A stretch of 64,000 nt of DNA from Candidatus Gastranaerophilales bacterium (GTDB lineage Bacteria > Cyanobacteriota > Vampirovibrionia > Gastranaerophilales > Gastranaerophilaceae): the NCBI GenBank assembly GCA_944326565.1, contig CALVEL010000007.1, positions 1 through 64,000 of the forward strand. Reading direction: 5' to 3'. The notes beneath the pieces were generated by a model. The model did not search any database. It saw only the letters and a program-made list of their open reading frames with translations, and was not told the DNA's origin. The position numbers were made by a program, and so were the translations under genes. Below are positions 27,040-38,060 of this stretch, piece by piece. The first letter of the stretch is position 1, and each line of letters opens with the position of its first letter.

Positions 27040-27765
27040 TTAATAAGAAATTTTTCTAGGATAATTTTTAGGGATTTTCCACCCGTTTTGCTGGATTAGT
27101 GCTGTACAATATGCACCACTAGCTCCTGTATTGCATCCAGATGTCGGATTTTCATACAAACTTGTAATATTTCCATCCCAAGCATACATATATGGTTCTA
27201 ATCCTTTATTACGGAGATAATCCCAGCCAATACTTTTATTTATAGGGCAAAACAAAAAAGCAAATTCACAAACACCTAGAACATCTTCTCCTTGTGCTTG
27301 TCTTTTTAAACATTTTTCAGGATTTCTAGGATAAAAAAATATATCTCGATTGGTATGTCTTTCAAAACGAAAAGCACTGCCATCAGCCAGATAATACATA
27401 TAAAATTCTTCTCCGGCAAAATTACCTGTAGAATATTTCAGTTTTTCAACCTTGTAAATTTTAAGATATGGAGCGAGATACAAATCAAAAGATTTTTTAT
27501 GATCTTCCTGTCTGTTGAGAGCAACGCCATCTTCACCAATTATATCAGTATTCCAGTATTGCCAGCCATCGAAAGGACCGTTTTTAGCATCAGACTGCAA
27601 AATAGCTTGATTGAAAATAGAATAGAATTTTTTTAATCTGGTCTCAGTTGCAGTAATATCATATTTGTGAATCATAGCCGGCAGAGTCATCGCGATAACA
27701 ACGCCCAAAATACCGAGTGTAATCAGGACTTCTGCCATTGTAAAACCTTTTATAATTTTAAACAT
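27040..27765 (-). CDS. Type IV pilin-like protein
   Basis: 241 residues. The prepilin N terminus reads K-G-F-T-M-A-E-V-L-I-T-L-G, with cleavage expected after Gly and Glu at mature position 5, followed by a hydrophobic assembly helix. The globular part has several cysteines and ends in C-T-A-L-I-Q-Q-N-G-W-K-I. A similar ending occurs in the pilin-like products at 37277 and 61334. It is probably a surface filament subunit or pseudopilin. AGAGGAT precedes the ATG. It is divergent from an XRE regulator, and the promoter carries a palindrome. Confidence 0.88.
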   Translation of the reverse strand: MFKIIKGFTMAEVLITLGILGVVIAMTLPAMIHKYDITATETRLKKFYSIFNQAILQSDAKNGPFDGWQYWNTDIIGEDGVALNRQEDHKKSFDLYLAPYLKIYKVEKLKYSTGNFAGEEFYMYYLADGSAFRFERHTNRDIFFYPRNPEKCLKRQAQGEDVLGVCEFAFLFCPINKSIGWDYLRNKGLEPYMYAWDGNITSLYENPTSGCNTGASGAYCTALIQQNGWKIPKNYPRKISY

Positions 27766-36972: not shown

Positions 36973-37248
36973 ATGGAAAGAACTTTTGATAAAAACTTCA
37001 TATATCCATACTCATCAAATCCTATTAAAGCTATGAATGAGCTGAAAAAGATGATTAAAAAAAGTGAGCAGGATATACAAGTCGATTTATCAGAAATGAA
37101 CGTAATTGATGCCATTAAGGTTTTGGTTATGCTTTCTTCTTACCTTTATCAAAAAACACCTGATAAAAAGCTTAAATTCAGATTTTATTCAAGTGATATA
37201 AAAAATGTTTTGACAACATTTTCTTTAAATAATTTGGTAATGGTATAG
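36973..37248 (+). CDS. STAS-like small protein (91 aa)
   Basis: The pattern I-Q-V-D-L-S-E-M-N-V-I-D-A-I-K-V-L-V near residues 35-52, followed by a strand with L-K-F-R-F-Y and a helix, resembles STAS-domain (anti-sigma antagonist-like) proteins. The usual phosphorylated Ser after the Asp is replaced: D-A-I rather than D-S/T-x. The match is by pattern only. There is no ribosome site before the ATG. The pilin with the G tract follows after 28 nt. Confidence 0.55.
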   Translation: MERTFDKNFIYPYSSNPIKAMNELKKMIKKSEQDIQVDLSEMNVIDAIKVLVMLSSYLYQKTPDKKLKFRFYSSDIKNVLTTFSLNNLVMV

Positions 37249-37276
37249 ATTGTAATTAAAGAACTAGGAGTAAAGT

Positions 37277-38060
37277 ATGAAAACGAAGACTATGATTGAA
37301 ATTTTAGGGGGGGGGGGCACCCGCAAATAACGCTCCTGAGCAGGTTTTAGGTAAAAATATAGCATTTACATTATCAGAAGTTTTGATAACATTAGGTATA
37401 ATTGGTATTGTTGTTGCTATGACATTACCATCTATAATCGGTAAATACCAAAAAAAGGTAACAGTTGAAAGACTTAAAAAAGTATATACCTTGATATCAC
37501 AAGCGGTAGCACTATCAGTAAAAGAGCATGAAGAATTGGAGTATTGGGATTTTGAACTTGGCGCACAGGAGTTTATGGATACTTATTTGAGTCCGCATTT
37601 TCAAAAAGTGACTTCGGAGAAAAAAACTAACAACGATCGGTATTCCAAAACTTATGTATTGCCAGATAGCACAACATTTTATGGGTGGATGTTTAAGAAT
37701 CCGAACCCAACGGTTCATGATCTAACAACTTTTTATCAAATAACGATAGATATAAACGGGGAACAAAAACCAAATCAATTAGGTAGAGATATTTTTATTT
37801 TTTATTTATTCCCAATGAAAAGAAATGTATTTAATGGAGGTTTAGGCAATCTGGCTATAAATGTCCCGAGAGCTGGATTATACCCTGATGGTTATGGTTA
37901 TGATAGAGAAACTCTAAAAAACGATACTTGGCGTGGATGTAACAGAAGAGGTGATGAAGAAGCTTCAGGGGCAAGTAACGGATATAATACTGTTGGATCC
38001 TTTTGTTCAGCTTTAATTATGCTTGATGGATGGGAAATAGCTGACGATTACAAGTGGTAA
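37277..38060 (+). CDS. Type IV pilin-like protein, frame broken by an 11-G tract (probable phase-variable, OFF)
   Basis: AGGAG precedes the ATG at 37277. Translation reaches eleven G (37307-37317), shifts out of the pilin frame and stops at TAA 37328-37330 after 17 codons. With 10 or 13 G the frame joins A-F-T-L-S-E-V-L-I-T-L-G, a pilin assembly helix, and runs to the stop at 38060, giving 260 residues with 10 G. The leader of about 30 residues is long for a prepilin. The C terminus has C-S-A-L-I-M-L-D-G-W-E-I, like the pilin-like products at 27040 and 61334. A downstream TTG at 37383 would lack the leader. An assembly error in the tract is the alternative. Confidence 0.75.
37307..37317 (+). 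repeat. Homopolymeric tract of 11 G
   Basis: This is the only G run of this length in an AT-rich window (next longest is 6). Tracts of 8 or more G commonly slip during replication and act as ON/OFF switches in other bacteria. Confidence 0.85.

Follow-up and report, generated by a model that had tools for sequence, protein, structure and literature searches.

The window analysed here is a stretch of 64,000 nt corresponding to positions 1–64,000 of contig CALVEL010000007.1 (assembly GCA_944326565.1, Candidatus Gastranaerophilales bacterium; forward strand). It contains a single run of eight or more G, where shuffled sequences are expected to hold 0.05 and none of 100 shuffles matched the observed count. 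The run lies in a short leader between a start codon and the reading frame of a pilin (Table 1), immediately downstream of a 91-aa ORF without Pfam match (36973–37248). The ATG (37277–37279) is followed by ten codons up to position 37306 and then by the tract, whose 3′ flank reads CACCCGCAAATAA (in a longer excerpt, CACCCGCAAATAACGCTCCTGAG) and closes the ATG frame at a TAA. Upstream of the tract the pilin frame is in turn blocked by a TAG (37305–37307). A tract of 10 G gives an ORF of 260 codons whose stop ends at 38060, and 13 G likewise rejoins the ATG to the pilin. The homopolymer is therefore placed inside the translated part of the ORF, with two of every three lengths breaking the frame. 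The sequence-only reading had described this arrangement, namely the ribosome binding site (RBS), ATG, ten codons, eleven G and TAA, the junction with the pilin frame at 10 or 13 G, the 260 residues with 10 G and the TAG just before the tract, and all these elements were found to be exact.

Table 1. Features of the tract-led pilin locus (window coordinates).
Feature	Position	Strand	Remarks
Shine-Dalgarno AGGAG	37266–37270	+	6 nt 5′ of the ATG; complementary to CTCCT at 37333–37337; sequence and pairing test
Short ORF with 11 G, MKTKTMIEILGGGGTRK then stop	37277–37330	+	OFF reading, one G too many
Poly-G tract, 11 G	37307–37317	+	10 or 13 G puts the pilin in frame
TAA of the occupied OFF frame	37328–37330	+	Stop
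Anti-Shine-Dalgarno CTCCT, shortly 3′ of the tract	37333–37337	+	Within the coding sequence when ON
Pilin reading frame from the tract (GAPANNAPEQVLGKNIA/FTLSEVLITLG...)	37317–38060	+	Stop ends at 38060; PF07963 at 37362–37424
Predicted mature pilin, 231 aa, cleavage before F by prepilin peptidase	37365–38057	+	Alignment, AlphaFold2, dN/dS

The protein encoded behind the tract carries a class III signal (G or A followed by F, E at +5 and a hydrophobic helix), in which F1 and E5 are invariant across an alignment of 35 homologues. It matches PF07963 (N_methyl, prepilin) with 23.2 bits in the genome search, above the cut-off, and with 20.0 bits, just below it, when the protein is searched alone. 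The AlphaFold2 model (pLDDT 80.9) shows a helix of 52 residues (3–54) followed by beta strands, and the mature pilin is thus predicted as an N-terminal helix with a beta-rich C-terminal part. A Foldseek search with the whole model gave no match at E <0.5, the first pilin appearing at rank 40 (E 4.5), and 20 of the 35 homologues match DUF6613, a family of unknown function. The host genome also encodes a prepilin peptidase (PF01478, C1:385674–386063). A conventional prepilin of the same genome (window 27040–27765, minus strand) shares their N-terminal motif and size; unlike the tract-led pilins, it has the usual short leader (MFKIIKG/FTMAEV) and no G tract.

The locus is not unique within the host genome, an assembly of 1.87 Mb in 14 contigs. 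Among its 33 runs of at least eight G, 31 are placed less than 400 nt upstream of a PF07963 match of the same orientation (random placement, P about 2e-63); of the other two, one (L040) precedes a pilin-like ORF truncated by the contig end and one (L039) is unrelated. The genome contains 73 PF07963 matches in total, 42 of them with no tract within 400 nt. In all 31 scored tracts the RBS and start codon are correctly placed upstream and the pilin frame is open downstream, so the upstream ATG segment, whose absence from homologues the sequence-only reading named as evidence against itself, is retained, and the same design recurs in five other genera (see below). The 11-G tract is one of about 32 slippable start cassettes in the host genome. 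In 22 cases the leader belongs to one cassette type (AAGGAGCTGGAAATGCAGACTATGATTGAA-G12-CACCCGAAAATAAGCTCCT) with a median nucleotide identity of 91%, whereas the pilin bodies behind these leaders are 34% identical, which suggests that the leader cassette moves, or is homogenized, separately from the pilin body. The proposal of a pilin switched by a poly-G tract is therefore supported, and extended to a family of genes behind a conserved cassette.

Two further types of leader were observed. In six host-genome loci (L009, L010, L017, L033, L037 and L038) the tract leader continues into a second module that has KKAFT at its end; a possible start codon is present immediately before the helix in these pilins, and initiation there might be independent of the tract. 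In L015, L025, L069, L084, L107, L126 and many loci of G053 and G056, sequence resembling interspersed repeats is found between tract and pilin. When read in the pilin frame these segments give CHPE...RRISK...EILRFAQNDKK, SGPDPESI and NLFQHLS, and it seems that the leader tolerates the insertion of repeats in frame.

The stretch between tract and pilin helix behaves as coding sequence. A total of 128 spacers of at least 20 codons, amounting to 8,795 codons, contain 27 stops in the pilin frame (confined to six genes); the remaining two frames together have 1,375. The reading frame of the homologues, suggested beforehand as a check, is completely open in 122 of the 128 spacers, and these counts indicate that the tract-to-pilin frame is selectively kept open. 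In the segment following the tract, highly variable bases stand beside fixed ones at the third positions of the ON-frame codons CTN and GGN, a pattern from a short segment that is supportive only. The window pilin and its close relatives are all out of frame (OFF) as sequenced. Comparison of the window pilin with two of them (L101 and L150) yields dN/dS values of 0.13–0.14, indicating that this pilin is under purifying selection although it is OFF.

The arrangement extends to the genus and the family. Of 14 genomes of the genus that were searched, 13 contain the sequence GGGGGGGGCACCCG, which is absent from all 85 other genomes searched. Contigs with the leader, where named, come from Candidatus Gastranaerophilales or Melainabacteria metagenome-assembled genomes (MAGs), a few being labeled just 'uncultured bacterium'. 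Phage records gave no match, and a phage origin was rejected on this ground. Runs of at least nine G are common throughout the family, the highest count in a genome being 128, whether or not the runs lie in genes. Five other genera were sampled (G034, G022, G016, G053 and G056), and RBS, start codon, G run and prepilin follow each other in the same order in all of them; the leaders differ in sequence while the arrangement is identical. In G026 and some other genomes the sampled G runs fall in non-pilin genes. At L129–L133, L140 and L145 (G026, G041 and G045) the genes concerned include repetitive autotransporter-like ORFs and one methyltransferase-like ORF. In G004 (C8, about 23.3–25.3 kb) three neighboring, similar DNA-methyltransferase-like stretches (L298–L300; ...DFFSGSGT...) carry runs of 9, 10 and 12 G right before the motif and represent a candidate phase-variable methylase. 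In one locus (L374, G008:C155) the tract is interrupted (GGGGGGAGGGGGG), the early-stop frame is retained and an intact pilin ORF lies downstream.

Comparison of orthologous sites gives a view of the changes in the tract. In G000, G001 and G006 the pilin is present between the 91-aa gene and a CitMHS-type transporter, while in G002, G010 and G011 a similar 91-aa gene adjoins the transporter with no pilin in between. The leaders at this site differ among the three genomes with the pilin (30 nt + 11 G, 31 + 13 and 32 + 12), and all three are one G over. The one clear pair of close relatives with different tract lengths between the same flanks is formed by the orthologues L015 (G000; 12 G, ON) and L058 (13 G, OFF), which have a common leader and flanks 80–86% identical. 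In another pair (L292/L295) the total length is retained through a substitution at the tract edge. Within the genus, tracts of 8 and of 10–14 G are found, and the ON state and both OFF states occur.

A second element of the leader is the complementarity between the RBS and a motif 15–20 nt beyond the tract (AGGAGCT/AGCTCCT), seen throughout the genus. In 79 of the 81 leaders of the genus the duplex has a lower energy than the shuffled mean, and own partners pair better than permuted ones in 1,000 of 1,000 trials, a comparison that includes the effect of relatedness; when G000 is taken by itself, the observed pairing is attained in 86 of 1,000 permutations. Paired variants change together, as in AGAGG/CCTCT of L047. 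In G034 about 10 of the 16 leaders have another pair, e.g. AAGGAGA/TCTCCTT, and permutation in this genome gave no significant result (the observed mean was attained in 123 of 1,000 trials). RNAalifold on tract-aligned leaders gave nothing useful because the distance from RBS to ATG varies, and the explicit duplex test was used in its place. The downstream arm would hide the RBS, and ribosomes passing through it in the ON state would open it. The pairing would in this way lower the leak of the OFF state.

The states of the tracts are unevenly distributed. Among 212 tract–pilin pairs, 31 are ON, 125 are one G over and 56 one G short, in assemblies whose homopolymer lengths can be wrong by one. 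The host genome has 6 ON, 22 over and 3 short and the other genomes of the genus 11, 61 and 4 (17, 83 and 7 for the whole genus). The one-over state also prevails in G022 (4 ON, 19 over, 0 short), G053 (3, 15 and 4) and G016 (1, 7 and 4), and the one-short state in G034 (5 ON, 0 over, 25 short) and G056 (1, 1 and 16). In these last two genomes nearly all tracts have 10 G whatever the context, and their lengths may have been mis-measured. Within the genus the number of G shifts with the spacing from ATG to tract in such a way that one frame is kept (chi2 88, P 3e-18, the paralogues not being independent). This excess of a single OFF frame should count against freely slipping tracts unless the frame is subject to selection or recoding. 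A pure tract-length equilibrium was rejected as its cause, as 13 G is common in the genus where it corresponds to the one-over state and absent where it corresponds to the one-short state. Of the two OFF frames, the one whose stop comes sooner is occupied in 143 of 181 OFF genes, and within the genus the window-type OFF frame meets a stop within five codons past the tract in 98 of the 107 leaders scored. The preference for the sooner stop is strong in g1, g2 and g22, absent in g10 and g4 and uninformative in g7, and is therefore only a partial explanation of the bias. Candidate causes are selection for an OFF reading that ends immediately, the commonest direction of slippage from the ON state, and recoding.

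Taken together, the sequence evidence makes it quite probable that the window gene is a tract-led prepilin with a slippable start and that the about 32 genes of this kind make up a phase-variable pilin repertoire, which would be switched in living cells. Translation of the prepilin would start in the short leader that holds the poly-G tract, where slipped-strand mispairing at replication would add or remove G. Ribosomes would accordingly read either the pilin frame (10 or 13 G, with leader and pilin as one protein, of 260 aa with 10 G) or one of the OFF frames, the one found in the window terminating just past the tract. The prepilin peptidase would then remove the leader, and the mature pilin would therefore be the same whatever the leader sequence, so that the tract decides only whether the pilin is made. 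With the pilins presumably located at the surface and about 32 such genes per genome, the cells of a population would therefore differ in the subset of filament subunits that is ON, and together form a mosaic.

Recoding offers a different account of the same tracts. RNA polymerase or the ribosome would slip on the G run, and the DNA length found, in most cases one G over and closely followed by a stop, would be the working state, from which part of the product comes out in frame, giving a low and steady level of pilin with no ON/OFF switch. A stop right after the slippery run is usual at recoding sites. Recoding would also fit the three orthologues (30 + 11, 31 + 13 and 32 + 12 nt), which share the one-over frame despite changes in leader and G number, the position of most OFF genes (143/181) in the frame with the nearer stop, and the interrupted tract of L374, which retains the same frame and an intact pilin. 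However, ribosomal slippage needs no run of ten or more pure Gs, and the runs stay pure and long though slippage would not require it. Moreover, about 15% of the genes are plainly in frame, tract lengths vary among paralogues and orthologues, and the direction of slippage needed varies by genus (one over in g1, g2, g10 and g4; one short in g22 and g7). We consider recoding unlikely on balance. A separate, tentative and rather doubtful reading would treat the cassette as a two-state device that alternates between an in-frame length and a single fixed OFF frame. This OFF frame would be either kept by selection (an immediate stop before the RBS-sequestering arm) or read at low level by slippage of the polymerase or the ribosome; such a module would spread among divergent pilins, with several unrelated versions within the family.

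An error of assembly or sequencing, by which tracts that are in truth all in frame were misread by one, would account for a bias that is mostly of one G and in one direction per genome, and the almost exclusive 10-G tracts of G034 and G056 in any context do look technical for those two. This explanation is very improbable for the set as a whole, given that the one-over state of the genus appears in MAGs of several studies with SPAdes-, MEGAHIT- and IDBA-style contig labels, and that lengths of 10–14 coexist within one genome depending on the frame need, which no sequencer knows; even with wrong lengths, the runs of at least ten G in 32 start regions would stand. Least credible, and close to dismissible, is initiation at an internal codon past the tract, with the upstream ATG and tract left as a remnant, a 5′ leader that regulates and includes a decoy ORF. 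The RBS/anti-RBS pairing that flanks the tract in the genus and the possible start immediately before the pilin motif of some paralogues are in line with it. Against this, the tract and the helix of the window gene are separated by a stretch without ATG or GTG, and the first codon that resembles a start is a TTG (37383) already within the helix. A non-coding leader would also not need a pilin frame open over 8,795 spacer codons.

Slippage of the tract in the DNA, the reading that we favor, has well-known parallels. The best-known cases of poly-G phase variation come from a few mucosal bacterial groups. In Neisseria, pilC undergoes poly-G phase variation and pilE/pilS recombination gives subunit diversity. 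The likeness lies in the switching of a type IV pilus component through a poly-G tract close to the start of its ORF; in contrast to Neisseria, where one or two adhesin genes have a tract and diversity arises through recombination into pilE, Gastranaerophilales have dozens of full-length subunit genes, each with its own tract. Poly-G tracts are an established simple sequence repeat (SSR) device for phase variation, and Campylobacter strains have 5–81 phase-variable genes, with 91% of the SSRs being poly-G/C (PMC6321876). Both are gut bacteria with many long coding-strand G runs in ORFs, the number of G setting the ON or OFF state. The tracts of the host genome differ in that nearly all belong to one gene family, the prepilins, most of them with one leader cassette, and in their length of 12 G, as compared with mostly 9–10 G in the Campylobacter survey, which found almost no sign of recombination spreading the tracts (PMC6321876). 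Against the 5–81 genes of Campylobacter, Gastranaerophilales genomes reach 115–128 runs of at least nine G (all runs, not only genes).

No paper linking phase variation to Gastranaerophilales was found among the open-access papers searched. What is new here is the scale of the tract set, the leader cassette and the OFF-frame bias, which is a sharp and countable puzzle. Gastranaerophilales are non-photosynthetic cyanobacteria of the gut, in which large sets of surface-filament genes probably undergo ON/OFF switching. If so, this uncultured gut branch of the cyanobacteria would have a set of poly-G switches that ranks among the densest known, placed in several genera mostly on a single surface-filament family. 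The filament make-up would then be a mosaic from cell to cell, and with it attachment, phage sensitivity or immune recognition would be mosaic too.
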